Below are positions 12,504 to 39,668 of a stretch of 39,668 bases of DNA, one piece after another. The first letter of the stretch is position 1. Each line of letters opens with the position of its first letter. Position numbers and translations under genes: made by a program. The DNA comes from a virus. The stretch is from IMG/VR virus record IMGVR_UViG_3300042465_002707, positions 1 to 39,668 of that record; one strand, given 5' to 3'. The notes under the pieces were generated by a model. It was not told the DNA's origin, searched no databases, and saw only the letters and a program-made list of their open reading frames with translations.

Positions 12504-13208
12504 TCAAAATTGTAAAAGTTGTTGTTGTGCATCATAATTAGTTCTTTGGTTACTCCATATTGCTTCTACTGTATCTGTGTTTCTTGCTCCTTGTATTTGT
12601 ATTACAGGTTTAAAATCCATCCAATCGGCTTTTGTGTTTTCGCAAACTATTGCTTGTCCGTTCCTTGTTTTGCACCATTCAGCCAATTTAGCAAAGTCAA
12701 TATTTTTACTGCTTTCCTTATAATACTTTCCTCCGAATTGATAAGGTGGGTCAATAAACCAAGTTGCATCTACGTTTTCAATTTCATCATAACTACCTTT
12801 CTTTATTTCCCAATGCCTTATCTTGTCAATATTTTCAACTATTCTGTTAATGTTTTGCTTGTGTATCCCTCTTAAATAATATTGCGATGAAGGTGTATTT
12901 TGTCCAGATGCAGACCCTTGCACTATACAAAATCTCATTAATGCTTTTTCGTCATCTGATAAGTTAAAGTCGTTTATATTATCACCTTGTTTCAATTCTG
13001 GTAATCCAAGTATATCTTTTTTAGTTGCTTGTTGTAAGTATTTCCATACTTGTATTACAACCTCATATTTATCTACAAGCAAAACATCATTCTGCCAATA
13101 TTTCAAACTGTATCTTGCACTTCCAGCAAAAGGTTCAATTATCCTTTTGTGTTTCGGTGGTGGGTAATAGTCCACTATTTTTGATTTGCTTCCGTAATAG
13201 CTAAACAT
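12504..13208 (-). CDS. Dam-like N6-adenine DNA methyltransferase (D12 class)
   Basis: A 234-residue enzyme of the D12 class. The N-terminal YYGSKSKI and SAM-binding EPFAGSA (25-31) come first and the catalytic DPPY (153-156) later, the alpha-class order of Dam enzymes. It would methylate adenine in a short DNA site, probably for protection from restriction or to mark replication. It is the second methyltransferase of this genome. The gene is visibly richer in A and T than the late genes, which suggests separate acquisition. It begins 29 bases after a degenerate copy of the 19-bp palindrome and is followed by a terminator. Family call is firm. Confidence 0.9.
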   Translation of the reverse strand: MFSYYGSKSKIVDYYPPPKHKRIIEPFAGSARYSLKYWQNDVLLVDKYEVVIQVWKYLQQATKKDILGLPELKQGDNINDFNLSDDEKALMRFCIVQGSASGQNTPSSQYYLRGIHKQNINRIVENIDKIRHWEIKKGSYDEIENVDATWFIDPPYQFGGKYYKESSKNIDFAKLAEWCKTRNGQAIVCENTKADWMDFKPVIQIQGARNTDTVEAIWSNQRTNYDAQQQLLQF

Positions 13209-18381: not shown

Positions 18382-20435
18382 CGTATGTGAATTTGGGTTA
18401 GTCTTGCGCTCAATGCCGCTATCTGAGTAGGTGTTAACAATCCATCCATCATGCCGAGTGTGTGCATTGACCCGTTGTAAGATGAACCTGCGAAGCTGTT
18501 GAACAGTCGGACACCCGCCCCCGAACCGATGGAAGCAGGCCCACCATTACCGACCGTTGAAGCGGGTGCAAGTGCGACCCCGCCTGAGTATAGGACAGTT
18601 CGATTTGATCCAAGCGTTCCATCATACGTGAATATGATGACCCGACCATTACCGACCCCCGTAGTTGCCGAGACATATTGCGAAAAGTTGTTGTAACCGA
18701 TCATGAGGTCGCCACCGACCACGCTACTGACCCCAATAGTTAACATTGCACCCGCTCCAAATTCCGCAAATCGCAAATTTGACGCTACGCTTGCCGTCTT
18801 TTGGGTTATGAAGAAACCAGTTAACTGGGTCTTGCCGTTGTACGGGTTGCCTGTTGACTTGTTCAGGTAAAGAGTGTTTTCAGCCGAAAGGTATCCAAGT
18901 TGCGAGTTATAGAATGTTCGGTGTGTAGATAGCTGGGCTGTCAATGTGTCTCCGCTTGTTCCTTGGTCGGCCAATGAGTCAACCAAACCGCTTACCAACG
19001 TCACACCCGTGTCACCCCTCCAATGGTTTATGCGTGTCAGGTAGTCCAACGGGTCTGTGACCGTTACCGATGCCGTGCCGCCTACCGTGCTTGCCCCATC
19101 CGTTGCGGTCACTCTTATGGTATCCGTTCCTACTCCTGTGACCGTCCATAGATAGGTGTTGCCGACCTGAGTGACAATATCAAACCCGCGTTCTTCATCG
19201 GGCAATATGAACGTGTAAGATGTCGGTGTGATGTTTGAAGCTGTGGCCGTAATTAGAACCGTGCCGTTGTATGTAGGTGTTCCGCTTGCAACCGATACGG
19301 CCAAAGATGGAACGGATGGACACGTTGGAATGATCCAAGCCGAACCGTTCCAACTACCTGCTGCTACTCCGCCCTGCAATACGTCCAAATCCTCAGAACC
19401 TCCGCTTGGAATGTCTCCAGTTGCGCCCAATGAAGCCCCGTTGATAGTGACCGTTGCATCGGCTGCGGGCGTACAGGTGAACATAAACCCGTCCGTGGTC
19501 GGAATGTAGTTGGCTAATAGAGTAGTAGCCCCGTCACTATCTAACGCCTTGCCCTGTGCTAAGGTCTTTGTAACGCCCGAAACAACCGAATCAGTCCAAG
19601 TTGGTGCAGCCGAGTTTCTGAGTGTGGTGTTGGCTACTATCGAAGGATTGGCCGAAGTGCCTACTGCCGTTCCTGCCGTGTTGCGGATAAGTTGGTTATT
19701 CGTGCCACCGCTTGCGGTTGTGCCGATGGTTGTGCCGTTTACCTGTTGGGTGACGTCTGCGCAGGGGGTACATATTTCAGTCTCCAAACACGTCAATTGT
19801 GCGGGTGTCAATTGAGCAACTACCGAAGGTTTGCAGAAGTCAAAGGCGTGTAATATGTTCGGGTCGATGTCATCGCATTCCGTAGGTAGGCATGAACCCG
19901 CGTAGATGACAGAGACCTCAATGTCAATCGACCCGTAAACCATTGCATACGTAGGCTCAAATGTTCCCGTTTCCGATGTTTCCTCATCCCATACCTCTTT
20001 GGCATCACCGTTCGATGTTGGAACGCTTACCATTACCTTATCAGCCCCAAGCGTTGTCTTTAGAATGCCATCGTCAAAGTTGAACTGAGCGACTACCGTC
20101 TGTCGTATCCTATCGAAAGCGTAGGCATCGTCTGTGGTCAGTTTGTCACGCCTCACGGAAAAGACCAACCGCAAAGGAATCTTAACCTCAACCCGCTTAC
20201 CCGCCTGATATTTGGTTTCAAGTACGTCCTGAGTGGGCTTGTCCCGAAGCCTCCAATAGCTTACACCGTCAAAAGCATCATGGCTTACTACCGTGTAATT
20301 GGCATCGCCAACGTACTCAACGGGCGAAACCTTGCCCTCGTTATCTGATTTCAACTCACAAAGACAATGCTGTTGCTCAAAGTAATTGAGTAGCCCTAAC
20401 TTTAGATTCAGGTATGTGATTATTGCTTCAAGCAT
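18378..20435 (-). CDS. Putative receptor-binding / adhesin protein (685 aa)
   Basis: A large modular structural protein. Residues 1-205 are a distinct N-terminal domain, probably virion attachment (beta-rich, with charged strand pairs). A low-complexity Thr/Ala/Gly stretch (about 210-370) follows. Residues 375-470 resemble an Ig-like/PKD repeat (ASGTPTYNGTVLITATASN ... VTVTD). Residues 471-685 look like a concanavalin/LamG-type lectin domain (RINHWRGDTG..., SYNGSMHTLGMMDGLLT). The architecture suits host glycan binding. It follows portal and Mu-F-like genes, outside the tail cluster, so it may be a head fibre or a tail spike. Confidence 0.7.
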   Translation of the reverse strand: MLEAIITYLNLKLGLLNYFEQQHCLCELKSDNEGKVSPVEYVGDANYTVVSHDAFDGVSYWRLRDKPTQDVLETKYQAGKRVEVKIPLRLVFSVRRDKLTTDDAYAFDRIRQTVVAQFNFDDGILKTTLGADKVMVSVPTSNGDAKEVWDEETSETGTFEPTYAMVYGSIDIEVSVIYAGSCLPTECDDIDPNILHAFDFCKPSVVAQLTPAQLTCLETEICTPCADVTQQVNGTTIGTTASGGTNNQLIRNTAGTAVGTSANPSIVANTTLRNSAAPTWTDSVVSGVTKTLAQGKALDSDGATTLLANYIPTTDGFMFTCTPAADATVTINGASLGATGDIPSGGSEDLDVLQGGVAAGSWNGSAWIIPTCPSVPSLAVSVASGTPTYNGTVLITATASNITPTSYTFILPDEERGFDIVTQVGNTYLWTVTGVGTDTIRVTATDGASTVGGTASVTVTDPLDYLTRINHWRGDTGVTLVSGLVDSLADQGTSGDTLTAQLSTHRTFYNSQLGYLSAENTLYLNKSTGNPYNGKTQLTGFFITQKTASVASNLRFAEFGAGAMLTIGVSSVVGGDLMIGYNNFSQYVSATTGVGNGRVIIFTYDGTLGSNRTVLYSGGVALAPASTVGNGGPASIGSGAGVRLFNSFAGSSYNGSMHTLGMMDGLLTPTQIAALSARLTQIHIR

Positions 20436-21288
20436 TTTTCAATTGCGCTTTAGGTACTACGGCCTCGGAGACTGGTAATATTGAGTGTTGGCAATTGTAA
20501 CCGCCTGCCGTTACGAAGATAGTAGTTGGATCAGTACCCGCCATTGCACCATCCCAATCGGGTGACGCACCCCAACTTTCAACCTCTTTACGGCTAAAGA
20601 ATTTGCCGTTACGCGCTTTGCAGAATGGTCGGGTTGTCTTCATCAATCCACCCGTGTAAAGAAACCAATCAGCACGTAGTTGCTTGCTGACCTCGTTGGT
20701 TATCGCCCTATCACTTAATGCGAAGGTGTCAGATACTACTTGACGGGTCGCCCGTTCCAATCTTCCAACGGTTTCGGGATCGCCCTCGATAAGCAACTTG
20801 AAAACGTCAATCACATCATTACGTGACGCGCCCGAAACAACCGCATTGCTTAACGCCTGTCGCATGGGATTGGTCAGATATTGGTCTGTGCTGTTGAGTA
20901 GGTCAACTACCATTTCGCGCTTCTTCTGTGCGAGTATGTCGGTAGCTATTGCGGGTATTTCAAAGGCATCAAATGACTGTTCAAAGTATCGGTAGGTGAT
21001 CGAAGCCTGTGCATCCATTTCGCCCAATAGTTTACCGACAACGGTTTCAAATTCGCCCTCAGTTAATAGTTCCTTGATCTGGTCGATAATGGGTTCAATC
21101 TTCAAGAGATTGGAGCGGCTTACAACGACCGAACCATTTGAATAATCCAACCCGTTGAGCAACTCCAATACCGTAGCGAACTTTCGCTGCTGAATCTGTG
21201 TCATACGCGAAGCAAAGGCATCGGGTATGGATTCAAGCCGACCTACCTTTTCGTCAACCAGTCGTTGTATGGCCTCGGAGAATGCCAT
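20428..21288 (-). CDS. Mu F-like minor head protein
   Basis: A 286-residue protein. Residues 190-272 match the phage Mu gpF-type head morphogenesis domain: WFLYTGGLMKTTRPFC (C223), RNGKFFSRKEVESWG, a W-GA-G region and GGYNCQH (C266, H268), with the Cys/His pattern intact. The N-terminal 180 residues are helical. Such proteins are minor head components made right after the portal, as here (one-base overlap with the portal stop). Family call by motif is good. Confidence 0.85.
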   Translation of the reverse strand: MAFSEAIQRLVDEKVGRLESIPDAFASRMTQIQQRKFATVLELLNGLDYSNGSVVVSRSNLLKIEPIIDQIKELLTEGEFETVVGKLLGEMDAQASITYRYFEQSFDAFEIPAIATDILAQKKREMVVDLLNSTDQYLTNPMRQALSNAVVSGASRNDVIDVFKLLIEGDPETVGRLERATRQVVSDTFALSDRAITNEVSKQLRADWFLYTGGLMKTTRPFCKARNGKFFSRKEVESWGASPDWDGAMAGTDPTTIFVTAGGYNCQHSILPVSEAVVPKAQLKNA

Positions 21289-24858: not shown

Positions 24859-25911
24859 TTACGAGTTGACCACGTTGATCTCCGCGAAGCCTTTGACACC
24901 GTCCAAATGGTCACCCGTTTGGTACATATCGTCAGGCAATGCTACGAGTTTCGTAGTGGCCGTAATGGTCACGTCAATCACTCCGCAATCGTGTTTTATC
25001 ACAATGTCGTAAGGGATTCCCAACGCGCCCATGATCTGACCGTATGATTGGTTTGCATCTTGCGCGCCAAAAAGACCTGACCAACGATTGTAGTACAGAA
25101 CTTGAAGCGCACCGTTTGCAACCGCCCATGTGGTCGTTTGGTTTCCTTGCGCAGCCGCTACGAAACGGTCACGGATTGAAGCCATTCCATACTCGCGTTG
25201 GATAGCCGCAATGTCAAGACCGTAATCGGTGCAACATCCAAGTTGCATCAATCGCAGGTAGTTGTGAAGGGTGAACCCACCGACCAAAGTAGCTTGGCCA
25301 AAACTTGAAGCCTCAAGTGCCGACTGAACCGCTTGCATTGTTGCCGCGAAAGGCTCATCAGCCGATCCCGTGCGAAGGGTCTTAACCTCGATCACATCAC
25401 CGTTGACGGTCAGGAATGGAATCCCTGAAACATCGGTTGACCATCCACCCAAAAGAGCGTTGGCCTGTGATGCGTTCTTGTTGTTCACCGCTACGTCCAT
25501 CGCAGCTACCAGCTTACCGATCTGATCCTGAAACCAAAACTCGTTACTGTCGCAAGAGGCTTTCAGATCTTCCACATCGAACTGCTGATCGAAGAACAGG
25601 TTCTGAGTGGTGTCGATTGAGTACTCCGTTGACGTGTTGCCGCGTTCGGTTGTGGCAGCACAATAGTTCGTGACGTTGGTCTGAACTGTGCTTGTAAGTA
25701 TTCGCGGCTGATAGGTAAGTTCAACCGTTCTGATCTTTGATCCCCCAGGACTTACGCGCATTCCCAAATCATTACGATTGAGTGGCGACATAAGGAACTC
25801 CGAAAAAGGAATCTTGTCCGTGAAAAACTTGGCGTTTTCATTCTCGAAAACATTATCCAAGCGGTCTTGTAGGTTCGGACACGCTACAAGAGTTGAAGGT
25901 GTGTATGACAT
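24859..25911 (-). CDS. Major capsid protein
   Basis: A 350-residue protein in the correct size range and position (behind a scaffold-like gene, before connector and portal). Sequence shows an N-terminal helix, beta-rich E-loop-like region (RTVELTYQPRILTSTVQTNV), helix WFQDQIGKLVAAMDVAVN and a P-domain/A-domain type C-terminus (GALGIPYDIVIKHDCGVIDVTI). It is flanked by a terminator on each side and has a leader of about 100 bases with a promoter candidate, as expected for the most expressed virion gene. HK97 fold is inferred. Confidence 0.8.
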   Translation of the reverse strand: MSYTPSTLVACPNLQDRLDNVFENENAKFFTDKIPFSEFLMSPLNRNDLGMRVSPGGSKIRTVELTYQPRILTSTVQTNVTNYCAATTERGNTSTEYSIDTTQNLFFDQQFDVEDLKASCDSNEFWFQDQIGKLVAAMDVAVNNKNASQANALLGGWSTDVSGIPFLTVNGDVIEVKTLRTGSADEPFAATMQAVQSALEASSFGQATLVGGFTLHNYLRLMQLGCCTDYGLDIAAIQREYGMASIRDRFVAAAQGNQTTTWAVANGALQVLYYNRWSGLFGAQDANQSYGQIMGALGIPYDIVIKHDCGVIDVTITATTKLVALPDDMYQTGDHLDGVKGFAEINVVNS

Positions 25912-27426: not shown

Positions 27427-28296
27427 TTAGCCTATCATTTTATCGCGCATTACCACGCTGTTCTTATACTTTACTTGGTGTCCGAATACTTCATTGCGAA
27501 GAAACCGATCATAGAACTCTTTGAAGTCGGCCTTGACCATTGTGTTAGCCCCCCGTCCGTTTCCAAACATTGAAAGCACATAGTAACCCGACCGTAGTTC
27601 GGATATTGAAAGGTGCTTGTTTGGAAAGTAGATAGGTTCATAGGCGAATTTCACATCCATCTTAGCCCGTGAAATTGCACCGCCCATTACTAACTCATCG
27701 GGTAGGTTCTTGCCCCACTTGATAAGTAGTTTAGTTCGGTCAACGAAAGCCGAACCGTTCAGGCTGATAGCGTCTCGGATCAACGCTGTGGCATCTTTGG
27801 ATTTACGGGCAAAATGCCAACTGGATTGAATCGCTTGGAACGTGTCCGAATCCTTCAATTTGAACTGATCCCAAATGTCGTCATTCGTTGCCCATACAGA
27901 GTAATTGATAACGTCCGCTTTGCCACCTTTGCCGTGAACATCTGTCAGGAAATTGCGCCCGTCACCTTTAGCATCCGCGTACCACTTTGTAAGGTCTTTC
28001 AATGAAAGTGCGTCAACGTCCATGAAAAGATACTCCTTGAAGTACTTTGTGGCGATAGGATAGACGCATAGTTTAGCATAGCCCGCATCAAGCATTCCGT
28101 TAGGGTGTGTAATGCTTTCGTCAATCGGGTGTAAGATGTCGAAGACTTTCAACTCATCAGCCGCCAAGTATTTCAACCCTGAATCATGGATCAAAAGTAT
28201 CTTGGCGTCGGGTGTGAATTTCTTAATTGACGCGGCTAAATTATACGCGGCATAGAAGTAACCACGTTTGCCGAATACAGTTAAAGCAATGTTCAT
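27427..28296 (-). CDS. GT-A type glycosyltransferase (289 aa)
   Basis: A 289-residue enzyme with a Rossmann-like start (MNIALTVFGKRGYFYAAYNLAASI) and the metal-binding DxD motif in YLFMDVDAL (D93, D95), as in GT8-like nucleotide-sugar transferases. It would pass a sugar from a UDP- or GDP-sugar to an acceptor in the cytoplasm. It has its own promoter with an almost leaderless start and lies between the tail-tube candidate and the scaffold genes. Third glycosyltransferase of the virion region; acceptor unknown (virion protein, host glycan or lipid). Confidence 0.75.
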   Translation of the reverse strand: MNIALTVFGKRGYFYAAYNLAASIKKFTPDAKILLIHDSGLKYLAADELKVFDILHPIDESITHPNGMLDAGYAKLCVYPIATKYFKEYLFMDVDALSLKDLTKWYADAKGDGRNFLTDVHGKGGKADVINYSVWATNDDIWDQFKLKDSDTFQAIQSSWHFARKSKDATALIRDAISLNGSAFVDRTKLLIKWGKNLPDELVMGGAISRAKMDVKFAYEPIYFPNKHLSISELRSGYYVLSMFGNGRGANTMVKADFKEFYDRFLRNEVFGHQVKYKNSVVMRDKMIG

Positions 28297-28301
28297 CGCG
28301 T

Positions 28302-28331
28302 CAAATATACAATTAATTTAGTATAAACAAG
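28302..28331 (-). promoter_or_regulatory. Promoter before the GT-A gene, leaderless
   Basis: Minus strand TTG-N18-TATATTTG (-7 box 28302-28309), directly behind the terminator of the tail-tube candidate. The box ends five bases before the ATG at 28296, the same geometry as the 4755 promoter. Would drive the glycosyltransferase and scaffold genes. Confidence 0.6.
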
Positions 28332-28356
28332 AAAGCCCATCGAATGACGGGCTTTC
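28331..28356 (-). terminator. Terminator after tail-tube candidate
   Basis: Perfect 8-bp stem GAAAGCCC/GGGCTTTC around a 10-base loop, followed on the minus strand by TTGTTTATAC. Located 23 bases after the stop of 28380-28925 and merging into the next promoter. Confidence 0.7.
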
Positions 28357-28379
28357 AAATGATAAACGAGAATAGACCG

Positions 28380-28925
28380 TTAGGTGAACACGCCCGCAGG
28401 AGTGGCAACCACCCTCGCGTTGAGTTTGTTCTTCCAACCTCCTGTATAAACGTATCTGAGTGCTTCCGTGTCTGAACCAGTCAAAGAGCCTTTGAACGCA
28501 ATACCCGCGTTATTAGGTGTGATGTAAAGCGTTACATCTTCTTCGTAAAGTCTCAACAGAAGCGCACCGACCGTCTGACCGTTAGCGTAATCCATTGAAT
28601 CGTAGGCCGCGTGTGAAGATTCATTGACGTTAGCGTCAACCCATGTTACAGTCCTTTCAACGGTTGATACCCGTGTCTGACCGCCCGCTATGTAACTCGC
28701 AGCTTCTGCGGGTGAACCTTCGGGAAGTTCAACAAGGACATTTTTGAAAAGGACTGCATCACCTGCCGTTATCAAGGCTAGAACTTCCGTTCCGTCCGTA
28801 ATGTCAGTAGGTAGGTTACCGCAACTGAATACAACCACTTGGTCTGCCGATCCGTTGAGAATGTCGCCACAATCGTTTAGGACTTGTGGAGATAGCGGGT
28901 CGCAATTATATGTAGTGCAAGCCAT
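28380..28925 (-). CDS. Putative major tail tube protein (181 aa)
   Basis: A 181-residue beta-rich protein that begins MACTTYNCDPLSPQ and ends with a strand set (ALRYVYTGGWKNKLNARVVATP) resembling tail tube or major virion subunits. It is a single-gene transcript with its own promoter (29001) and terminator (28331), an arrangement otherwise seen here only for the capsid gene, so high expression is likely. A leader of about 70 bases precedes it. Main alternative: a capsid decoration protein. The glycosyltransferase genes on both sides make it a candidate acceptor. Confidence 0.6.
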   Translation of the reverse strand: MACTTYNCDPLSPQVLNDCGDILNGSADQVVVFSCGNLPTDITDGTEVLALITAGDAVLFKNVLVELPEGSPAEAASYIAGGQTRVSTVERTVTWVDANVNESSHAAYDSMDYANGQTVGALLLRLYEEDVTLYITPNNAGIAFKGSLTGSDTEALRYVYTGGWKNKLNARVVATPAGVFT

Positions 28926-29000
28926 TGTGAATAGAATTTGAATATAATATCCGAATATGATTAGCCTCGGACTTAGCTACGTAGTGACTTGCGATCGGTG

Positions 29001-29028
29001 CAAATGTACGGAATAATCAGTTACCAAC
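29001..29028 (-). promoter_or_regulatory. Promoter of the tail-tube candidate
   Basis: Minus strand GTTG-N16-TACATTTG (-7 box 29001-29008) with the TTGGTA sequence near -33 that also marks the 14229 and 16141 promoters. Shorter spacer, but the box is identical. Gives a 70-base leader to the ATG at 28925. Confidence 0.6.
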
Positions 29029-29656
29029 CGATAGCGTCATCAATACGCCTATGTTCGTGGCCGATAGTACTGAACCGTCCGATGTGTTGCATAAGACTTG
29101 GGGTGTGGAAAAACTGCAAATATCCAATTTGATGTATCGCTTCGGGGATAGCGTGGTCAATCTGTTGGTTCTTGGCGTAGTTATCCCTGTGGTTAAGAAT
29201 GTACGGGTGTTTCAATATCTTCTTGGCAACCTCACGCCTGAACAGATAACCACCGCCCCAACTTGAAGCCCAACCGCCTTTAACTTCGTGCCATCCTTTC
29301 GTATTCGGAAACTTGCTCGACATTCCTTTAGGCGTGTATAGTGCCAAGTACCCCACGTAGGGATTGATATTGAATTGACGTTCTACGATGTTCTGCCATC
29401 CTTGCATAAGTTTAACATCGTCTGGAAATATACCAACTATGTCAGCGTCTGTTTTTACAAGGTCTTCCAAAACGCGGTAATAATGTTTGAAGCACCCCGC
29501 ATGATCGCCCAATTCCTTTACTTGAAAATCCGTTCGATGTGGGAATGTATGACCGTCAGGATAGACCGTACAATCAGGGTGAAATACATTGTGCTGCATG
29601 GTGTGGAATGTCTCAACCTTGCGCGGAAACCAAGTAACGCCTATTGCTATCTTCAT
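29021..29656 (-). CDS. Glycosyltransferase-like protein (211 aa)
   Basis: I start at the ATG at 29654-29656 (MKIAIGVTWF), which overlaps the stop of the acyltransferase gene (ATGA). The 211 residues show a GT-A-like fold: N-terminal strand, VGIFPDDVKLMQGW with the acidic PDD at 78-80 as metal site, then GGWASSWGGGYLFRREVAKKIL, the usual acceptor-side loop, and a His-rich end. Likely a small family-2/25-like sugar transferase. Part of the amidotransferase-acyltransferase operon. Acceptor unknown. Confidence 0.7.
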   Translation of the reverse strand: MKIAIGVTWFPRKVETFHTMQHNVFHPDCTVYPDGHTFPHRTDFQVKELGDHAGCFKHYYRVLEDLVKTDADIVGIFPDDVKLMQGWQNIVERQFNINPYVGYLALYTPKGMSSKFPNTKGWHEVKGGWASSWGGGYLFRREVAKKILKHPYILNHRDNYAKNQQIDHAIPEAIHQIGYLQFFHTPSLMQHIGRFSTIGHEHRRIDDAIGW

Positions 29657-30171
29657 TCCTTTGACCTTGCGGGGTTGCCGTAAACTACACAATCGGCAGG
29701 TACATCTTTGACCACTACCGAACCAAGACCGACCAATGCACCGTTGTTTATGACTATCCTATTACGAACGGTCACGCCCAACTTCAATTTAACCCCGTCC
29801 TTAATCATAGCATAACCGCCTATGATAGTTCCCGTACATACCTCGCAGCCGTTGCCTATAAAAACATCATGCCCGATATGTGAGTGAGCCATTATGATAT
29901 TGTTCGACCCGATAGAAGTACAATCACCCTCTTTGAACGGCCTTTGAATCGTGACAAGTTCGCTGATAACGTTGTCATCGCCTATGATAACATGACCCTT
30001 GAAATCATCCTGTGACACGCCACGCATTTCACCGTTCGACCCGATAACGCAGTAAGCTCCTATCCAGTTACCCGTACCAAGTTTCACATTCGGGTGAACT
30101 ATCGCGGTACGGTGGATGTAGTTACCGTCTATGTTGATCCAATCGCTGTTATACAAGTCCTGATTTGACAT
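29653..30171 (-). CDS. LpxA-like hexapeptide acyltransferase (172 aa)
   Basis: A left-handed beta-helix protein: hexapeptide repeats run through most of the chain (IHRTAIVHPNVKLGTGNWIG, GDDNVISE, IGSNNIIMAHSHIGHDVFIGNGC, IGGYAMIKDG). The MAHSHIGHD segment matches the LpxA signature in which a His acts as general base. Members transfer acyl or acetyl groups to amino-sugars. The protein is shorter than LpxA (about 260 aa) and lacks its C-terminal helical domain, closer to sugar O/N-acetyltransferases. It ends YGNPARSKE, typical of sugar acetyltransferases. In the cassette it likely modifies a sugar before or after transfer. Confidence 0.85.
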   Translation of the reverse strand: MSNQDLYNSDWINIDGNYIHRTAIVHPNVKLGTGNWIGAYCVIGSNGEMRGVSQDDFKGHVIIGDDNVISELVTIQRPFKEGDCTSIGSNNIIMAHSHIGHDVFIGNGCEVCTGTIIGGYAMIKDGVKLKLGVTVRNRIVINNGALVGLGSVVVKDVPADCVVYGNPARSKE

Positions 30172-31468
30172 GGGCTGTCCATTCTTTATTGGTGAAGTGA
30201 GGGTTACTGAATCCTCTTTTCTTGGCTACGAGTATTTCATCAGGTAGGCCGCTTATGTCCTTCAATATCCGTTTACCGAATAGGTATTTTTTGGGCAATG
30301 ACAACGCGAAGTCAACCAGTTCGTTGTCAAGAAATGGGTAGCGTGTTTCCATCGTATGCCACCCGCCCATCCTATCCTCAACGACCAATATACCACGAAG
30401 GTACGCCCAATCATACGCATCGTGGGTAATGTCGTAACGCTTGCCATACACGCCCGTTCTGTTAATCACAGCATGAATGTCCTTGTCATATCGGTGTGTG
30501 TAACCTTTGAAAACCTCGTCACCTCCCGCGCCTGAATAGACCACTTTACAGAACTTTGATGCAAGTTCAGCCAAGGCGAAATTGGTGTAGCAACTACCCA
30601 CCTTCGGGTCGTCCAATGCCTGTAGTACCCGGTCCTTATACTTGGCCGCCATATCGTCATTGCAGATCATGGTGTAATGGTTGCCCGTTGTATTGGTCTT
30701 GATGCCTTCAATCTCACTTGATGCGTTCAGGTAGTCCATTGAAAAGCAATAGTCTGGGCTGAACCATTTGGCTATCATTCCAGAATCAATGCCTCCACTA
30801 AGGTAGCAACCCGCGCCCTCGTATCGGTTACGTTCAACAACCCGTGACCATATTCGTTTGAGTTCGTCCTTCGCTGCTTGATAGCTTATATCAATCTTGT
30901 CAGGCTTTGGAAACGGTAAACATTGCACCCGTGTCACGCCTAAATAAATAGTGTCTGGAGTCATTACACCTAGCGAATACTCCCAATCTTCCAACGCATG
31001 AAAGTCAATGTCAAGGTCAACTACCGCTTTGATTCCTTTGACCTCCGAACAGATGTATGTCGTTTTGAATCGCTTGTAAATGTAAAGCTGTTTAATTCCG
31101 TATCTATCCGTGAAGTAATGAATACCGTTGGCATCATGATACAACACGGCAAAGAAACCGTTGAGCCTATCGAGTGGCATATCATGCGATACCCACCAAG
31201 CTAATAGTTCGGTATCGCTCTCAGCAATTAAACTATTTTCGCTTGCTAGTTCCTTCCAGTTACTTATGTAACCATTAAGCCAAAGCGTTACATCCTTATA
31301 TCTGCATGGCTGTGAATACACATCATTTGTAATCGGTAAATGAGTGAAGTAAACGTCTAGGTTCTCAATCTTTGTAAGAGTCGATGTTATACCGCGTCTG
31401 CGAATAGCCACGCCCATTGTAGATGCAATATACCTGTCACCGTTAATTACGGCCGCTATCCCGCACAT
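30149..31468 (-). CDS. Asparagine synthase-like glutamine amidotransferase (439 aa)
   Basis: A class II glutamine amidotransferase fused to an ATP-pyrophosphatase synthetase domain, as in AsnB. N-terminal nucleophile C2 (MCGIAAV), glutamine-site segments RRRG (23-26), NGYISN (65-70) and ESDTE (83-87); synthetase P-loop LSGGIDSG (223-230), SGAGGDE (312-318) and the ETRYPFLD element. All key residues for ATP-dependent amidation are present; E. coli AsnB has about 554 residues, so this is a compact form. AsnB relatives in glycan loci amidate sugar acids. Finding one in a phage virion operon, between glycosyltransferases, is unusual. Overlaps both neighbours by 23-26 bases. Confidence 0.9.
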   Translation of the reverse strand: MCGIAAVINGDRYIASTMGVAIRRRGITSTLTKIENLDVYFTHLPITNDVYSQPCRYKDVTLWLNGYISNWKELASENSLIAESDTELLAWWVSHDMPLDRLNGFFAVLYHDANGIHYFTDRYGIKQLYIYKRFKTTYICSEVKGIKAVVDLDIDFHALEDWEYSLGVMTPDTIYLGVTRVQCLPFPKPDKIDISYQAAKDELKRIWSRVVERNRYEGAGCYLSGGIDSGMIAKWFSPDYCFSMDYLNASSEIEGIKTNTTGNHYTMICNDDMAAKYKDRVLQALDDPKVGSCYTNFALAELASKFCKVVYSGAGGDEVFKGYTHRYDKDIHAVINRTGVYGKRYDITHDAYDWAYLRGILVVEDRMGGWHTMETRYPFLDNELVDFALSLPKKYLFGKRILKDISGLPDEILVAKKRGFSNPHFTNKEWTAHVKSGLV

Positions 31469-32294
31469 TGAATCTTGATGTTATTACAGATTGGTCAATG
31501 TAAGAAGTATTCGGCCAAAGTTCAAACGGTGTCATGTTCGTTGAACTCTTAACGTCAACCGCGAACAATCCGCTATCTTTTAACCTGAATGTCTTAACGT
31601 GCCTGTTGGCCTTTAACAATTTACCCTGCATGGAATTGTCCAAAAAGTCCGAGTGTTGAACTTCCCACGGTCTGCACTTCCATTCTTTCAATAGTGATGC
31701 GCTTATTACACGACCAGCCCCGCACGTATGGCCTTTACGTTGCCTGTCGATGTAGCCGCCCCAATAGCTTGCCCTTCCTGTTGTGGTGTCATAGAAGTAC
31801 CAATCCAACACACCGATGAAGTCGTAACCCTTTTTCATAAGGCGTATGAACTCGTTCAACAGTTCCTTTGAAATAAGATCGTCCGAGCCTAAACAGATAA
31901 CGTGGGAATAACCATCCTCAACCGCTTTAATGGTCGTGGCGTTCATCTTCGTTGCAAGTGGTTGGTTCTCAATTTCAATGTACTTGAAACCGTACTTTTC
32001 CGCTTGTCGTTGGCTTACTTTTCCCTCACTCCCCGCAACTATCACATCTATTCCAAGCGTGGCCGTATGTTTGGCGAATATGTCAAAGATGTCGGGTCGC
32101 TTCCACATTCCCGTAACAATGACTGGATTGACCTTTGATGTTTGGATGAGCGGTGTCGGAATCTGCCTTTCCGCGTGGCCGCTTCCAATTATTCTATCAA
32201 CGTAATTAGGTTTGAACCTGTTTTCAGAAACAACCTCGCCTACCTTATAGACGTTGCCGTTGTGGTCAAATAGTTGCTTTAGGATTACAAGCAT
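31443..32294 (-). CDS. GT-A glycosyltransferase with N-terminal small domain (283 aa)
   Basis: Residues 55-250 form a GT-A-like enzyme: NPVIVTGMWKRPDIF at the start, VICLGSDDLIS with the acidic SDD at 137-139, and GVLDWYFYDTTTG...CGAGRVIS further on. The first 45 residues (HNGNVYKVGEVVSENRF) look like a small SH3-type beta domain often found as a phage add-on, suggesting anchoring to a virion or partner. First gene of the sugar cassette, 48 bases after the fibre-like gene. Sugar and acceptor unknown. Confidence 0.75.
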   Translation of the reverse strand: MLVILKQLFDHNGNVYKVGEVVSENRFKPNYVDRIIGSGHAERQIPTPLIQTSKVNPVIVTGMWKRPDIFDIFAKHTATLGIDVIVAGSEGKVSQRQAEKYGFKYIEIENQPLATKMNATTIKAVEDGYSHVICLGSDDLISKELLNEFIRLMKKGYDFIGVLDWYFYDTTTGRASYWGGYIDRQRKGHTCGAGRVISASLLKEWKCRPWEVQHSDFLDNSMQGKLLKANRHVKTFRLKDSGLFAVDVKSSTNMTPFELWPNTSYIDQSVITSRFNVRDSGRN

Positions 32295-32342: not shown

Positions 32343-32867
32343 TCAGTCGATAACTATTCGGTAAGTAATGCCAACCGCGATATTCGAATCTCCCGTTATC
32401 GGTTCGCCTGTTGTGTTGGTAACGAATACATCCGTTGCCGTAAGCACTTGCGTCTGCCCTGCCGTTGGGTTGGTCTGGGAATATGATGTGGTTGTCTTGC
32501 TAACGGTTGAAGCTAGAAAGTTATTGCCTATCGTTCCAAGTGCTGCCGCGCCTCCGTTGGTCAATTGTAGCTGAGTGTTTGTGGCATAGGCCGCGCTTCC
32601 GTATTGAATGGTGGCCGAAGCCCCAAGTATCTCAACGTGGTAACCCGTTGGAACGGTCAACCCGAACGCTTTAGGAACGCTGTTAAGTGTCAATACTTCG
32701 GATGTTGGAATGGTCACGGTTGCAAACCGAATCCCGCCAAAGTAGTTATCATTCAGCCCTTCCAACGTGGCCTGTTTGACCGTGCCATCAGGTGCAAGGA
32801 TAAGGAATGTAACGTCATCCGTGTAATCGGTTGAAGATGCTGCGGGGTATTGTGAGAATCGTGCCAT
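32343..32867 (-). CDS. Fibre/decoration-like virion protein (174 aa)
   Basis: A 174-residue protein with the start MARFSQYPAASSTDYTDDVTFLIL, typical of short N-terminal anchor segments of head-fibre or tail-fibre-like proteins in Bacteroidota phages, followed by a Thr/Ala-rich beta-structured domain (TIPTSEVLTLNSVPKAFGLTVPTGYHVEILG). Rich in Ser/Thr, so a potential target for O-glycosylation by the adjacent cassette (inference). Placed between tail-tip and glycosyltransferase genes; starts two bases after the stop of the 516-aa gene. Confidence 0.65.
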   Translation of the reverse strand: MARFSQYPAASSTDYTDDVTFLILAPDGTVKQATLEGLNDNYFGGIRFATVTIPTSEVLTLNSVPKAFGLTVPTGYHVEILGASATIQYGSAAYATNTQLQLTNGGAAALGTIGNNFLASTVSKTTTSYSQTNPTAGQTQVLTATDVFVTNTTGEPITGDSNIAVGITYRIVID

Positions 32868-32869
32868 TT

Positions 32870-34420
32870 TTAAGGTGTTGTTATTGCTGAATCTGCTTGA
32901 TCGTTAATCGTTTCTAATTTCTGGTCAAATATAGGTGAACCGCCAACAGCGCATCCTACTGACGCACTTGATAACCTCCTGTTCTCAATCAATTGAGTCT
33001 TGATGCTTACGTTGATCGTAACGCCTCCGCTATCTTCGTTACCATCCCAACTAATAGATGGGTATTCGTCATCCTCAACGAAGTATTCAACGTCATCAAT
33101 ATAGAAGTGGTCGGCCTGTCCGAAAAGCATAGCGAAGTCATGCATGAACTCCTTGCCGTCAAAGCCAAGTTCCCTCGCCTTGCGTGAACGTGCGTAGTAG
33201 GTCGCCTTTGTGCCGCGTGAATTATCGTAGGCCATTCGTTCCATTGGATAGTTGGAACGGTTAAGGCTTGCGGGTATTCTCATCAACGGCCTGAATCCCG
33301 TGTTAGCGAACCCGAAGCCAAGAGCATCCGAATCATTGCACAATGCCAACGCCAATGTCTTGCAGTCAAATGACGACCTGACATTTATCACATTGCTTAG
33401 ATAGTATTCCTGAGTTGTTCGGTCAATCGACATATCCGTTACCTCGAATGTCTGAGTGCCTGACGATGAATTGCCTATCATTATGAATGACGTGCCGTTT
33501 GAGACAATGGTTTCCGTAAACGTGCCATTTGTGCTTCTGACAACCCCGTTAGTTGTACCTAATCGAACATTGAACAGGTCGTTCCCGCCCATACCCGAAA
33601 GAGTGTAGGTTAAATTGTAAGAAACCTCATCACACACCACATGGTTCAATATCGCTTGGCCTGCGGTTGATCCGTTGTAAGTAGCTATTCCGTTTGCTAT
33701 TGTCCAACTTCCAGCAAGTGACCAATTGAATAGACCCGTTTCAAAGTCTAAAGGAATGATACCGCGATTGGCACACGGGCAAGGATCAACAACCGCTATA
33801 TGATAACATCCGTCAGGTATTGACAACGTTTCCCAATCGATCGTAGCCGTAAAATAGCCGTCCTCGAAATTGAAGTAACCGTCTGCCGTTAATAGCACCT
33901 CAACGGGTGTGAGATTCTCGTCAACGATCGCAACTGAAAAGTTTGTGTTGATCGTCATCACTTGGATGTTCGACACGCAAACCGCGAAGCTAGAACCTAC
34001 TGAGAATATGGCCGCAGAATCCGCAACTATCCAACGGGTGTAACTTCCGCTTACTGTGAATGATTCTAAGTAAGTGCCGTATTGAACCACGCAGCCCGAT
34101 TCAGAAACCGAAAGGTCGAATGTCAGGCGGATGAGAACGTCATCAGCAACGGGTGCTATCTGAGACAACACCCCGTATATTCCTGAAGTGTGGCAAGCGT
34201 TACCATCGAACACATCCCAATTAACCCCGACCGTCCAATTGGTCGAGCCGTCAAAGTTTCCGTTACGGATAACATTCACGTCAGTACCGCACGGCTCAAG
34301 CTGCATCTGGAATTGAGTAATGTCACCATACTCAGCAAGGACTTTCAATCCGCTATCTTCCAGCCAACAGTCATCCTCTTGGTCGAATACTATCGGTTGA
34401 TTTGGAATGAGATTAGCCAT
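32870..34420 (-). CDS. Tail-tip protein with carbohydrate-binding-like domains (516 aa)
   Basis: A 516-residue structural protein. Two jelly-roll-like segments recur: residues about 49-165 (NVIRNGNFDGSTNWTVGVNWDV...) and 225-335 (LFNWSLAGSWTIANGIATYNG...), both with the 'N-W' openings seen in carbohydrate-binding modules. The last 150 residues are a different, more compact part ending in a strand-rich VTINVSIKTQLIENRR. Follows the 635-aa tail protein with an 8-base overlap. Likely a tail-tip or receptor-contact protein; binding partner unknown. Confidence 0.65.
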   Translation of the reverse strand: MANLIPNQPIVFDQEDDCWLEDSGLKVLAEYGDITQFQMQLEPCGTDVNVIRNGNFDGSTNWTVGVNWDVFDGNACHTSGIYGVLSQIAPVADDVLIRLTFDLSVSESGCVVQYGTYLESFTVSGSYTRWIVADSAAIFSVGSSFAVCVSNIQVMTINTNFSVAIVDENLTPVEVLLTADGYFNFEDGYFTATIDWETLSIPDGCYHIAVVDPCPCANRGIIPLDFETGLFNWSLAGSWTIANGIATYNGSTAGQAILNHVVCDEVSYNLTYTLSGMGGNDLFNVRLGTTNGVVRSTNGTFTETIVSNGTSFIMIGNSSSGTQTFEVTDMSIDRTTQEYYLSNVINVRSSFDCKTLALALCNDSDALGFGFANTGFRPLMRIPASLNRSNYPMERMAYDNSRGTKATYYARSRKARELGFDGKEFMHDFAMLFGQADHFYIDDVEYFVEDDEYPSISWDGNEDSGGVTINVSIKTQLIENRRLSSASVGCAVGGSPIFDQKLETINDQADSAITTP

Positions 34421-36320
34421 TTTTACCTAACATTTCTAGTTGCGCTCCTCCTGTTAACTTTCGCTCAATATCTTGCAGCCACACGTTCGTTGAACCACTT
34501 AGATAGCTAACTGGAATCCTATCAAATGGATTACTCTTAATTGCCTTCCAATCGCTTAACGATATAGGAAACTCAAAGTTATTCTTTATTTGAAAGACGT
34601 TAGATGAATCATAAGTTTGCCAAGCACCGCCCAAAGGGTCGAAGCATCGGAAGGTAGAACCCGTGTAAACATCACCCATTGCGCCAATCGTTCTAGCACC
34701 TACGTATTCACCCGCGTTAAGGTAGAATGTTGCGCCTCCTGTTATTCTGAATAGACCACCTCCGATTGGTACTCCTAATGGCAGATAATAACCACCACCG
34801 CCACCGCCTAAAGTGTTTGAAATCATCTTAGCAATAAACCAATTGTTTGAGTTGGTTATTACGTCAATCTCAAATGAATAGACTGCGTTATTCGGTGCAG
34901 TATAAATGCCAATATCCATTACCTGATTATACAGCGTACCGCCCGTTGGGTCGAATTGGTCGTAAGGAACAAATGGAAAGTAAACGCTTGAAGCAATTGA
35001 GAAGTTAGCATTGACATCATTCCAAGGCAACGGGCTTGATTGGTCGGGTTGAAATCCATTCAATGAAGACGTAGGAAAGTAATTGAACGACTGGTTTATA
35101 AGGCATCCATCGTTACCACTTCCGAGAAAGTTGTATATCGTTTGCGGTATTTGACCAAACCACCTAATCGCTACGTTCCTATTACTGAAATAATCATTGA
35201 AGTAGAAATCAGTTACAGAGCCAGGCTTTGCGGTCACTTGCGATTGATTAGCTACGTTAAGATTGAGAATAAAAACGCTATCATCGTAGTCTGCATTATC
35301 AGTGCCTCCCATACTTCCAGCACTTGGTAGAACGTCCTGAATGATATTGGTATCTGGTATCAATGCTGATAACTTCAAATCTAGGTAGGTGTCAATATTG
35401 CATTGACCACCCAAGTGATATTCCTCTTCGCGTGTTCCATTGAACCGTATGTCTTGAAGATAGTTCGTTTGTGTGCTATCCTCCGAACTACCGAACTTAA
35501 CCCTAGCATAAAGCGTGTTGGTATCTAGTTCTTGGCTTAAATCTCGTACGTTGTCAAATGATACCGTTGTGCTATCCTTTTTAAAGTAGTCCTTATCTTC
35601 TATGCGAATGTTTCCATTCTCAAATGACATAGCTAAATTGTGCAGCTTATTAAGGTCACCGAACAAATCAACGAACGATATAACGGGTTCATTACTTCCG
35701 CCCGTTCTTATACTAAGCCCCGTCATTATAACGCTGTAAACGTGCGGTTCTGAATTGGTGTTATAATCAAAGTAGTCAGAAACAAAGCCAATCGATCCGT
35801 CAGAAACGAAAGTTATAATAGAACTAAGCGCATCGAATATTCTAATCCCTGCGCGACTTGTAACGCTATTTGCAGTCGTTGGACTGAATATTTCTATATC
35901 CGTTTGGCTTGTCACCGTGTATGCGATGCCGTTCTTTGTTTTACCTACGCTCAATGAACACTCAATCGAACGATTATTAACCACCAATGAAGTGATTGAA
36001 TCGTCTTGTATTTCACATACCGCCCATTTCTTATCAGGCCACCAAACCACATCGGACAACTTAATGAATCCAGTAAAATCAATACCGTCAGGGCTGTCTA
36101 AGTCCTTGATATTAATAACGGCATCATCACAAACGCTTGCAAGCCATTTGTTCCTTAGATAGTCGTATTCGCTACCAATGAAAGTAATAGTCCCGTTAAT
36201 CTCTAAAAGGTAAGTAGATAGGTCGTAAGAATAGTAAAGATGTTCTGATATTTCAGTAACGCCTATCGGTTCGGCTACGACTGTATTCCCATCAAGTGTA
36301 ACTCTAAGCATATCCGCCAC
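34413..36320 (-). CDS. Distal tail / tail-tip protein (635 aa)
   Basis: A 635-residue, strongly beta-type protein right after the tape measure gene, the place of distal-tail and tail-associated proteins in siphoviruses. The first 300 residues look like a Dit/Tal-type platform (TGFIKLSDVVWWPDKKWAVCEIQDDS); the C-terminal part has a poly-Gly loop (LGGGGGGYYLPLG) inside a jelly-roll-like domain. Overlaps the tape measure gene by 17 bases. More AT-rich than its neighbours, as receptor-side genes that recombine often are. No catalytic motif seen. Confidence 0.65.
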   Translation of the reverse strand: MADMLRVTLDGNTVVAEPIGVTEISEHLYYSYDLSTYLLEINGTITFIGSEYDYLRNKWLASVCDDAVINIKDLDSPDGIDFTGFIKLSDVVWWPDKKWAVCEIQDDSITSLVVNNRSIECSLSVGKTKNGIAYTVTSQTDIEIFSPTTANSVTSRAGIRIFDALSSIITFVSDGSIGFVSDYFDYNTNSEPHVYSVIMTGLSIRTGGSNEPVISFVDLFGDLNKLHNLAMSFENGNIRIEDKDYFKKDSTTVSFDNVRDLSQELDTNTLYARVKFGSSEDSTQTNYLQDIRFNGTREEEYHLGGQCNIDTYLDLKLSALIPDTNIIQDVLPSAGSMGGTDNADYDDSVFILNLNVANQSQVTAKPGSVTDFYFNDYFSNRNVAIRWFGQIPQTIYNFLGSGNDGCLINQSFNYFPTSSLNGFQPDQSSPLPWNDVNANFSIASSVYFPFVPYDQFDPTGGTLYNQVMDIGIYTAPNNAVYSFEIDVITNSNNWFIAKMISNTLGGGGGGYYLPLGVPIGGGLFRITGGATFYLNAGEYVGARTIGAMGDVYTGSTFRCFDPLGGAWQTYDSSNVFQIKNNFEFPISLSDWKAIKSNPFDRIPVSYLSGSTNVWLQDIERKLTGGAQLEMLGKNG

Positions 36321-38565
36321 GTTTACGAGGTTTAAGAACTTGTCTTAGTTCCTGTACAATGAATCTAGCACTATCCTTTTCAGATGTTCGCATCCTATCT
36401 AAACCCCTTATCAGATTCTTATCGTTAAAGTTATTTTGTAGCATGAATGAAGCACCCATCCCCTCAAATCCGCCCGCTAATACTTGATCAATCGCTGGAG
36501 TGATTATGTTCTCAAACTTGTAAGATTCCCACCCTCCTTTACGAATGGCTGTAAACATTGCTTTGTGTTTCTTTGTTTCTTCGGCTGTCATTACACTTTC
36601 ACCTTTTGACAACTTAGCATCAATACTATCACTTGTTCCTGTTCCTTTTCCTTTTAGGTCAATAACACCTTTGGCGAATTGTGGCGTAGGTGTCGCGGCT
36701 ATGATAGCTACCTCCGCAGCTACTGAAGCGGCTACAATTGCAGCTAATGCTGGGCCTCCTTGATTGAAAGCATTAATAACAGCGGAAGCACCGTTTACTA
36801 TTGCATTGAATATGTTAAAAGTCTTTTGGTCTTCCGCTTGTTGCGTTAATATCTCACGTCTTTTTTGGTCGTATTTATCCCTAGTTATTAACCCTTGCTG
36901 AAGTTGGTACTCTAAATTTGCTAACTCCTCATCGGCTAAAGCCCTGTTCAATGCCGCCAAATTATTCATTAAGTCAGTTATGGCAGAAGCATACATGTTC
37001 CATTGCTGTAATGATTGCTCTTGTTGTGCTAATTCCGCATCAGACATCCCGTCAAACCAAGGCTTTCCACTTGAATTAGTTGGATCACCAACACCCATCG
37101 CGCTTATGTCAGGATAGCCAGCCGAAGGGTCTATTTGATTATCGTTGAAGTTCTTAATCTTCTGCTCAAGTTCATCAACCGCAATAGACGCATCTTTGTA
37201 TTGTTGCGAGAACTCAGGACTTGTTTCGAGTATTTTCCTTTGCTTACTTAGCATCTTGTTCAGACCTGCAATGCTTGAACTCATGGCTTGCACAACTGGA
37301 ATACCTGTTGACTGCATCATGGTATATTCCATAAGTCTTAACTTGGCTATTTTTTCAAGTTGTTCGCGTAGTTCTTTCTGTTCCTTAGTTTCCTCCCCAA
37401 GCAATGCCGCAAGTTCTGCCCTTAGTTGCTTTTCCTTTTCGCGGAGTGGTCTTATTGCGTTGACTGCCGTTGCCTCGTTTTTGATAGCGTCAACTACGTC
37501 CTGTATTGCTTTCTCATAGTAGGCTACGTTTTTGATTTCTTCTTTTTGAGCCTCTGTCGCTGTTTCGGTAGCCGCCTTAACTTCTACGGTTGCCTTTTGT
37601 TGCTTATGCAGCTTATCTATGTTTTCATCAATAACACCGTTAGTCAGCCCTAGTATTTCCCTAAGTAACTGATAAGCCCCAACATTTCCTTGAATTAGCG
37701 AATTAAGTACTTTGAATGGTTCTAAGACACCTTCAACCGCATTAGAAATACCTTTCATTACGATACTAAGCCCGTCAAATCCTTCTAAGTTTAGTAGTTG
37801 CCCTGTCTTAGAAATCTCTGCATTGAGTTCTGAAAATTGGCTTATCAATTCCTTGCCAAGTGATACCTTGAAGTTATCAAATGCAACACCTATCTGCGCA
37901 ATCTTATCAGCCGTAGTATCGGCCTGATCGCCCATCTTAGCCATCTCCTCCGTAGCAATGTCACCTACTGCCTGTGCAATGTCACCGACCGAAGCTGTTT
38001 CAGTTCCTACGCCTTTCAGCTTGTCACGCAATGCAACCGCGCTGATACCAAGGTTGTCAAGGATCAAAGGAGACTTTCGCCCGATACCAAGTATGATCGA
38101 ATCAACAAGGTAATCCACGCTTTCACCCGTTTCCCTCGCCCGTGCCTGTGCGAATTTGAACAACGATGCAAGGTTCTCAAGTGGTATCTTGAAGTTAGAA
38201 GCCTTGACCGCGTTCTGCATCAGTACCAAGTCCGTTACAGTTCCCCGTGTCGCATCCCTCAATCCTTGAAGATACTGACCGCCTCCGATACGTTTGAACG
38301 CCCTTTCAACACCTTCGGCCTGTGCTGCCAACTTGACCGTTTCCGCACCGAAAGCAATGAGTTCACGCGCACCGAAAGCAACACCGATGGCCGCGCCTAC
38401 TTTGGATAGGCTGCTTACCATGCTCGATGACATATCCTTGAAATCCTGTTCTGTCTTTTTGGTTGCCTGATCGACCTTATTGACCTTGCCAGCCAAAGCG
38501 TCCAATTGCTTCAACGCTTGGTCAACCTTTACAGTATATTCGGCTACGATCTTATCAGTTGCCAC
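36304..38565 (-). CDS. Tape measure protein (753 aa)
   Basis: A 753-residue, helical protein with an N-terminal coiled coil (VDQALKQLDALAGKVNKVDQATKKTEQDF), a hydrophobic middle (INAFNQGGPALAAIVAASVAAEVAIIAATP) and a basic end. This architecture and its place behind the chaperone-like pair mark the tape measure, which sets tail length and takes part in DNA ejection. At about 0.15 nm per residue it predicts a tail near 110 nm. No lytic-transglycosylase or peptidase motif is visible. Confidence 0.88.
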   Translation of the reverse strand: MATDKIVAEYTVKVDQALKQLDALAGKVNKVDQATKKTEQDFKDMSSSMVSSLSKVGAAIGVAFGARELIAFGAETVKLAAQAEGVERAFKRIGGGQYLQGLRDATRGTVTDLVLMQNAVKASNFKIPLENLASLFKFAQARARETGESVDYLVDSIILGIGRKSPLILDNLGISAVALRDKLKGVGTETASVGDIAQAVGDIATEEMAKMGDQADTTADKIAQIGVAFDNFKVSLGKELISQFSELNAEISKTGQLLNLEGFDGLSIVMKGISNAVEGVLEPFKVLNSLIQGNVGAYQLLREILGLTNGVIDENIDKLHKQQKATVEVKAATETATEAQKEEIKNVAYYEKAIQDVVDAIKNEATAVNAIRPLREKEKQLRAELAALLGEETKEQKELREQLEKIAKLRLMEYTMMQSTGIPVVQAMSSSIAGLNKMLSKQRKILETSPEFSQQYKDASIAVDELEQKIKNFNDNQIDPSAGYPDISAMGVGDPTNSSGKPWFDGMSDAELAQQEQSLQQWNMYASAITDLMNNLAALNRALADEELANLEYQLQQGLITRDKYDQKRREILTQQAEDQKTFNIFNAIVNGASAVINAFNQGGPALAAIVAASVAAEVAIIAATPTPQFAKGVIDLKGKGTGTSDSIDAKLSKGESVMTAEETKKHKAMFTAIRKGGWESYKFENIITPAIDQVLAGGFEGMGASFMLQNNFNDKNLIRGLDRMRTSEKDSARFIVQELRQVLKPRKRGGYA

Positions 38566-39462: not shown

Positions 39463-39668
39463 TTATTCTACTTTCTCAGCCCTAATATTCAGTAGCTTCA
39501 ATTGGTCGGGTTCATCAGTCAGTTCACAGCCATAAACATCAAACGTTGAGCCGTTACACGCTATCCTGTAAATTACCGTTCCACCAACAAATTCAGTTCT
39601 TGCAACTATGATGTTCTCGTGCTGTTCGGGATCGGTCTTTAAGAATACTGATTCGCCCAGTTTAAAAC
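39463..39668 (-). CDS. Small hypothetical protein, remaining part (window edge)
   Basis: This is the same gene as at 1-156, here cut after the second codon at the window end; it supplies the C-terminal end (TDEPDQLKLLNIRAEKVE, stop at 39463). On the circular map the full protein has about 69 residues. The part shared with 1-152 differs by one synonymous base. No motif recognised; it precedes the tail-chaperone-like gene by 11 bases. Confidence 0.75.
   Translation of the reverse strand, partial: FKLGESVFLKTDPEQHENIIVARTEFVGGTVIYRIACNGSTFDVYGCELTDEPDQLKLLNIRAEKVE
39517..39668. repeat. Terminal direct repeat, right copy
   Basis: This is the second copy of the 152-base repeat found at bases 1-152, identical except at 39643. 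The match is exact for the first 126 bases, then one mismatch and 25 more matching bases. The overlap closes the genome at about 39,516 bp. Confidence 0.9.

Follow-up and report, generated by a model that had tools for sequence, protein, structure and literature searches.

We describe a cassette of five enzyme genes in a virus record of 39,668 bases (IMG/VR record IMGVR_UViG_3300042465_002707; hereafter the window, meaning this whole stretch of DNA), encoding three glycosyltransferases (GTs; GTa, GTb and GTc), an AsnB-like glutamine amidotransferase and a left-handed beta-helix hexapeptide acyltransferase (LbH). The module recurs in other phages and is exchanged between relatives, and we conclude with high confidence that it is a genuine phage glycan locus, both recurrent and exchangeable. 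The best explanation as a whole, to which we assign a probability of about 0.6, is that tailed phages exchange this locus for glycan synthesis and that its acceptor is most likely a virion protein. The minus strand of the window carries nearly all genes, in the transcription order tape measure (36304-38565), p635, p516, p174, GTa, AsnB, LbH and GTb, followed by p181, GTc, p172, the scaffold-like p272, p350 (probable capsid protein) and, later, the portal gene. The first four cassette genes overlap (GTa/AsnB by 26 bases, AsnB/LbH by 23, LbH/GTb by 4), in agreement with a previous sequence-only reading of this DNA, which had the genes overlapping or closely spaced in the direction of the tail, tail-tube and scaffold genes and placed them correctly.

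In order to follow the module in other genomes, viral contigs were scanned with AsnB, GTa and LbH, each scan retrieving the other two, and the 187 loci were reduced to 69 groups with no common 60-residue identical stretch. Among the 41 groups with a full-length LbH gene and 2.5 kb on each side, GTa is found within 3 kb in 37, AsnB in 28, and some GT of the cassette types is nearby in 39, whereas from the side of AsnB (21 groups) GTa is present in 20 and LbH in 19. The genes are thus not scattered, and the systematic co-occurrence of sugar-chain enzymes sustains the glycan-building cassette proposed from the sequence. A chance gathering of genes is ruled out by this recurrence, together with the selection described below. 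The carriers are of several structural types, comprising siphophages that resemble the window phage and sheath-bearing myophages (phrog_165 sheath, phrog_4699 tube, GpA-type terminase), the sheath of the latter resembling that of Flavobacterium phages, and one carrier group has relatives among the cultured phages of Flavobacterium columnare. The tail-sheath relatives FCV-1 and FCOV-S2 have no cassette beside the sheath gene. Myophage carriers have the cassette between their sheath and terminase genes, on the strand opposite to both, and extra GTs flank it on either side; the location inside a virion operon that the sequence-only reading had described therefore applies to the window but not in general.

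The partners of the cassette are variable, and include GTd, GTe, GTf, a sulfotransferase (PF13469) and a methyltransferase. Fusions (GTe-GTa, AsnB-LbH and GTa-LbH; the GTe profile was rebuilt to exclude the first of these) and loci without AsnB indicate that AsnB is an optional decoration on a GTa-LbH core. The sequence-only reading had missed that AsnB is optional, and that the unit is one of two alternative cassettes at an exchangeable site. In locus L030, an AsnB remnant of 76 residues (2238-2468) lies between intact GTa and hexapeptide genes, and likewise in L050; in both, AsnB appears from the sequence to be in the process of being lost as the GTa-hexapeptide core stays. A fixed block inherited as one was considered and rejected, the gene distances correlating weakly (Spearman 0.18, p 0.09, for GTa/AsnB; 0.40, p 0.003, for GTa/hexapeptide), which suggests that either the parts reassort or the distances are saturated.

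Searches with tblastn gave zero matches for GTa in 50,697 phage records and zero for GTc in the phage collection, the whole module was found in no cultured phage record, and we found no description of an AsnB/hexapeptide/GT phage module in open-access papers. These results agree with the sequence-only reading, which took an AsnB homologue among capsid and tail genes to be an undescribed kind of phage system. A scan of 84,980 prokaryote genomes gave a single GTa locus, on a contig of a metagenome-assembled genome of Candidatus Peregrinibacteria (L065:9959-12587), where the module stands beside an open reading frame (ORF) resembling a DNA cytosine methyltransferase, and which is either a virus or a case of misbinning. 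AsnB matches in the phage collection were few, and most were set aside as bacterial-looking unannotated records with no gene of the GTa or hexapeptide families nearby; three unannotated phage records (L062, L063 and L237; OQ572415, LT985590 and OQ572403) show bacterial-looking ORFs near the match. Also set aside were Streptomyces phage TurkishDelight, with AsnB between two methyltransferases and without GTa, and a hexapeptide match in 'Pseudomonas phage Y1', which lies in bacterial-looking DNA.

The AsnB-like protein matches the Pfam families Asn_synthase (4.2e-30) and GATase_7 (4.7e-11). The intact Cys2 nucleophile and SGGIDS loop pointed out from the sequence are general features, as Cys2, the SGGxDS ATP loop and the catalytic Lys are kept in 33/33 relatives, across which the GxGxDE motif is invariant or nearly so. 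Viral asparagine synthase has been read as a metabolic gene in the rumen virome (PMC10465536), and by analogy the gene might make asparagine beside unrelated sugar genes. However, the protein scores 143.6 bits against the cut-off of 267.1 of the asparagine synthase equivalog profile (TIGR01536), the position of Glu348 of E. coli AsnB, located by alignment through human ASNS, is occupied by Ala in 31 of the 33 relatives and by Ser and Thr in one each, and the linkage to GTa and the hexapeptide gene is near-constant. On these residues and this linkage we reject a metabolic role, which we consider very improbable. Since the residues are altered and the score is far below the cut-off, the protein is probably an AsnB-family amide ligase with an acceptor other than aspartate.

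LbH matches Pfam Hexapep (6.3e-13; 48.3 bits for a threshold of 27) and the NCBIfam LpxA profile (3.3e-29, yet under its cut-off), with scores under the LpxA equivalog values (TIGR01852 and NF003657; 96.3/231 and 101.8/226 bits). Both His of the LpxA-type HxxH motif are kept in 26/26 relatives, and the assignment as an LpxA-like hexapeptide transferase is upheld. The AlphaFold2 model of GTa (predicted local distance difference test score, pLDDT, 92) has a GT-A fold, its best structural match being the fucosyltransferase WrtF (9omh; Z 18.6, 2.6 Å, 181 residues), followed by TarP and TarS, and its acidic metal-binding pair (DD) is kept in 33/34 relatives. With Pfam Glycos_transf_2 the window protein reaches 18.6 of the 23.3 bits of the gathering threshold, and 21/34 relatives match (best 8.7e-08). 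GTc has an invariant D-V-D motif (15/15) and weak profile matches (best E 0.007-0.5), all of GT8 type (glycogenin, a Skp1 galactosyltransferase). The proposal of three GT-A-like enzymes with acidic sites is confirmed for GTa; GTc is probably GT8-like and GTb is weakly typed. The most likely start codon of the GTb gene is the ATG at 29656, which matches the start in L004, and not the TTG at 29692.

All five cassette genes show ratios of nonsynonymous to synonymous substitution rates (dN/dS) of 0.04-0.19 (window versus L002 and L004), and since these values reflect purifying selection on all five enzymes, the cassette is maintained. The gain and loss of related cassettes and the remnant in L030 would fit recently acquired host genes with no phage role, but the selection, the near-absence of GTa from the prokaryote genomes and the recurrence in dozens of phages make such an origin hardly credible.

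The relative L194/L205 is close to the window (p350 94% and portal 89% identical), and between p174 and p181 it carries a different set of genes: a GT, a DUF6492 protein, a weak sulfotransferase match, an FkbM methyltransferase and a GDP-mannose 4,6-dehydratase (Gmd; 2.4e-114). A second cassette type of the order GT-GT-FkbM-Gmd is found at the corresponding site of other p516-bearing siphophages, to which L208 adds an Epimerase-family protein resembling GDP-fucose synthase and another methyltransferase. Among 16 siphophage groups that share the tail-tip gene p516, partial contigs included, GTa is present in 12 and the second type in 4, with none having both or neither. Thus, the site holds one of two mutually exclusive, exchangeable cassettes. 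The first 50 residues of the L194 GT are 66% identical to the N-terminus of GTa, whereas the remainder matches an unrelated GT at 52%, and among the fetched loci this N-terminal domain occurs only in GTa proteins and in the L194 GT. We put forward the hypothesis that the domain docks to a constant acceptor, and go no further than this because the domain boundary could alternatively be a recombination point inside GTa.

The evidence on the acceptor comes mainly from p181 and GTc. The top structural matches of the p181 model are nearly all tail-tube/Hcp proteins (Z up to 9.2, 4.0 Å, 131 residues), and its viral matches include named tail-tube proteins. By its predicted fold p181, which the sequence-only reading had named with the gene product at 32343 as a Ser/Thr-rich virion protein, is a tail-tube protein. 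Of 26 distinct GTc copies, 18 are directly downstream of p181; upstream DNA is missing for 5 of the remaining 8. In the window group the pair is far from the terminase gene, whereas in the L208, L212 and L217 groups it abuts the terminase gene or lies within 1 kb of it; since the same pair occurs at two distances from terminase, p181 and GTc have moved together between two genome positions. Apart from extended ORF starts, there are no membrane proteins in the cassettes, and tyrosine integrases were found in 3/38 carrier records, which may be fragments. The GTc/tail-tube pairing, the lack of membrane proteins and the few integrases favour a cytoplasmic, phage-made acceptor, with the tail tube as the first candidate, although none of them is decisive.

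A different target would be a host surface polysaccharide, such as the lipopolysaccharide core or a nucleotide-sugar-borne glycan, which the cassette would modify to block progeny re-adsorption or superinfection. Bacterial loci for surface glycans typically contain AsnB and hexapeptide enzymes, the best structural matches of GTa (WrtF, TarP and TarS) act on surface glycans, and the separately oriented myophage cassette is moron-like. However, no flippase, lipid-linked GT, polymerase or membrane acyltransferase was found in or near the cassettes, integrases are few, GTc is tied to the tail-tube gene, and the siphophage site is always occupied by one of the two cassettes, so that we regard this alternative as unlikely, though far from negligible. 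The GTs could also hypermodify phage DNA, with the AsnB-like and hexapeptide enzymes decorating the sugar, given that there are known phage GT clusters that glycosylate bases carrying hydroxymethyl groups (Pyle et al. 2024, cited by PMC12619734). Against this, a thymidylate-synthase-like base-modifying gene (PF00303) is present in 0/38 carrier records and C5 cytosine methyltransferases in just 5/38, and the two methyltransferases of the window, a ParB-N6/N4 methyltransferase fusion (3005-4201) and a D12 adenine methyltransferase (12504-13208), are of other types. A search for TET/JBP (PF12851) was blank for the 38 records and for its controls alike, and so is uninformative. A role in DNA modification is, in our view, highly unlikely.

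Several observations weigh against a virion-protein acceptor or the enzymology assigned to the cassette. Confidence in the p181 model is moderate (pLDDT 66.6), and GTc occurs without p181 in L198, L230 and L025. In the AsnB-like protein, the Arg that binds the Gln carboxylate is present in 5/33 relatives only and is His in the window protein; because this and the Glu348 position depart from the canonical enzymes, both donor and acceptor are uncertain. GTb is the least certain of the three GTs, with weak family matches (GT25, E 0.045), and the opposite-strand cassette of the myophages need not serve the virion there. The glycan is predicted from the genes, and from these we infer the chemical steps, the acceptor and the benefit. 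With these points taken into account, the virion is still somewhat favoured as the target, and the tail tube in particular is a candidate with slightly less than even chances.

For a virion-directed glycan locus, the following mechanism can be proposed. Working in the cytoplasm, soluble phage GTs would assemble a short glycan from the nucleotide sugars of the host. A sugar carboxylate would be turned into an amide by the AsnB-like enzyme and the sugar acylated by the hexapeptide enzyme, amidation and acylation being the likely chemistry judging from the enzyme families; in relatives, sulfo- or methyltransferases would fill such decorating roles. The acceptor would be a virion protein, and the link of the GT8-like GTc to the tail-tube gene makes the tail tube the best candidate. 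When relatives exchange the whole cassette, the type of sugar would change, much as with a serotype locus; the phage may benefit by being shielded from recognition by the host or the environment, or through a change in adsorption.

More tentatively, and with a larger share of doubt than of belief, we suggest a mobile virion-glycan system shared by unrelated phage types, in which the target-side part stays and the sugar enzymes are swapped, with the AsnB of the site acting as a glycan amidotransferase. The target-side part would consist of the tail tube with its GT and of the N-terminal domain of the first GT, possibly docking to a constant acceptor, and the swapped enzymes would give virions with amidated, acylated, sulfated or deoxy/methylated glycans. 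If true, phage coat glycans, so far documented chiefly in mycobacteriophages, would be a general and variable trait with a gene signature to look for, and viral AsnB genes should be assigned to asparagine metabolism only with caution. The kinship of one carrier group with the cultured F. columnare phages brings laboratory tests within reach.

Table 1. Features of the cassette and its surroundings, in window positions.
Feature	Position	Strand	Basis or remark
GTa, whole gene	31443-32294	-	GT2-like glycosyltransferase, GT-A fold
GTa N-terminal domain (~52 residues)	32139..32294	-	also kept on the unrelated GT of relative L194
GTa catalytic domain, GT2-like, GT-A fold	31443..32138	-	profile, model and motif evidence
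AsnB-like glutamine amidotransferase/ATP-dependent amide ligase	30149..31468	-	Pfam and motifs
LbH, LpxA-like left-handed beta-helix (hexapeptide) acyltransferase	29653..30171	-	Pfam/NCBIfam and catalytic His
GTb, putative glycosyltransferase	29021..29656	-	weak GT25 similarity
p181, tail-tube protein, candidate acceptor	28380..28925	-	predicted fold
GTc, GT8-like glycosyltransferase paired with the tail-tube gene	27427..28296	-	DVD motif, weak profiles
p174, conserved virion-region gene, upstream boundary of the variable site	32343..32867	-	conservation
p516, conserved tail-region gene, defines the siphophage group	32870..34420	-	conservation
p350, probable major capsid protein, downstream of the site	24859..25911	-	inferred from position and conservation

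Regarding the window genome itself, a 152-base terminal direct repeat is present (1-152 and 39517-39668, 99.3% identity; the record is classed as linear), and the relative L002 runs continuous across the end joint, so that the record is probably a circularly permuted form of a complete genome of about 39.5 kb. The terminase (1375-2691) shares 42% identity over 57% of its length with two Campylobacter phages, the other matches listed reaching at most 24%. In the tail region, p635 (34413-36320) is 28% identical to its L002 counterpart, the adjoining p516 being 98.6% identical, which suggests that p635 is likely a swapped host-recognition gene. Another gene changing place in the virion module is p286 (20428-21288), which adjoins the portal gene in the window and directly follows p174 in L003 (7905-8792) and in many siphophages. 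No clear Shine-Dalgarno signal was seen at the start sites of the window, which fits Bacteroidota and proves nothing on the host.

Among known systems, bacterial O-antigen and capsule loci contain AsnB-type amidotransferases, such as Pseudomonas WbpS, and hexapeptide acyltransferases. The cassette has the same kinds of enzymes (GT, AsnB family and hexapeptide) and the same exchange of whole cassettes at one site, but it lacks a flippase, a polymerase and a lipid-carrier step, and it lies among the virion genes of integrase-free phages. Phage serotype conversion genes, such as gtrABC and oac, are also phage-borne genes of glycan modification, in contrast to which the cassette proteins are all soluble, with no membrane flippase, polytopic GT or membrane acyltransferase, and integrases are few. 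The closest known system is the virion glycosylation of mycobacteriophages, which the present locus would resemble in its working: PMC11256854, PMC12619734 and PMC11600133, citing Freeman et al. 2023, link GT genes of mycobacteriophage clusters F1 and O to capsid and tail-tube glycans, and describe in cluster O an O-methyltransferase gene upstream of three tandem GTs and no lysogeny genes. Both systems have several phage GT genes, and the second cassette type of our relatives also includes methyltransferases. Those reports name GTs and an O-methyltransferase only, whereas here, in a system predicted from its genes and compared by described gene content, AsnB-like and hexapeptide enzymes and another GT family are present and whole cassettes are exchanged. 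The clusters for glycosylation of phage DNA (Pyle et al. 2024, cited by PMC12619734) are likewise multi-GT and found by metavirome mining, but unlike them the carriers described here have no thymidylate-synthase-like partner and rarely C5 cytosine methyltransferases. Finally, AsnB-family proteins are already on record in viruses, as PHROG 16728 and as viral asparagine synthase read as an auxiliary metabolic gene (PMC10465536); in contrast to that reading, the AsnB described here is tied to a glycan cassette and has altered residues at key acceptor and donor positions.

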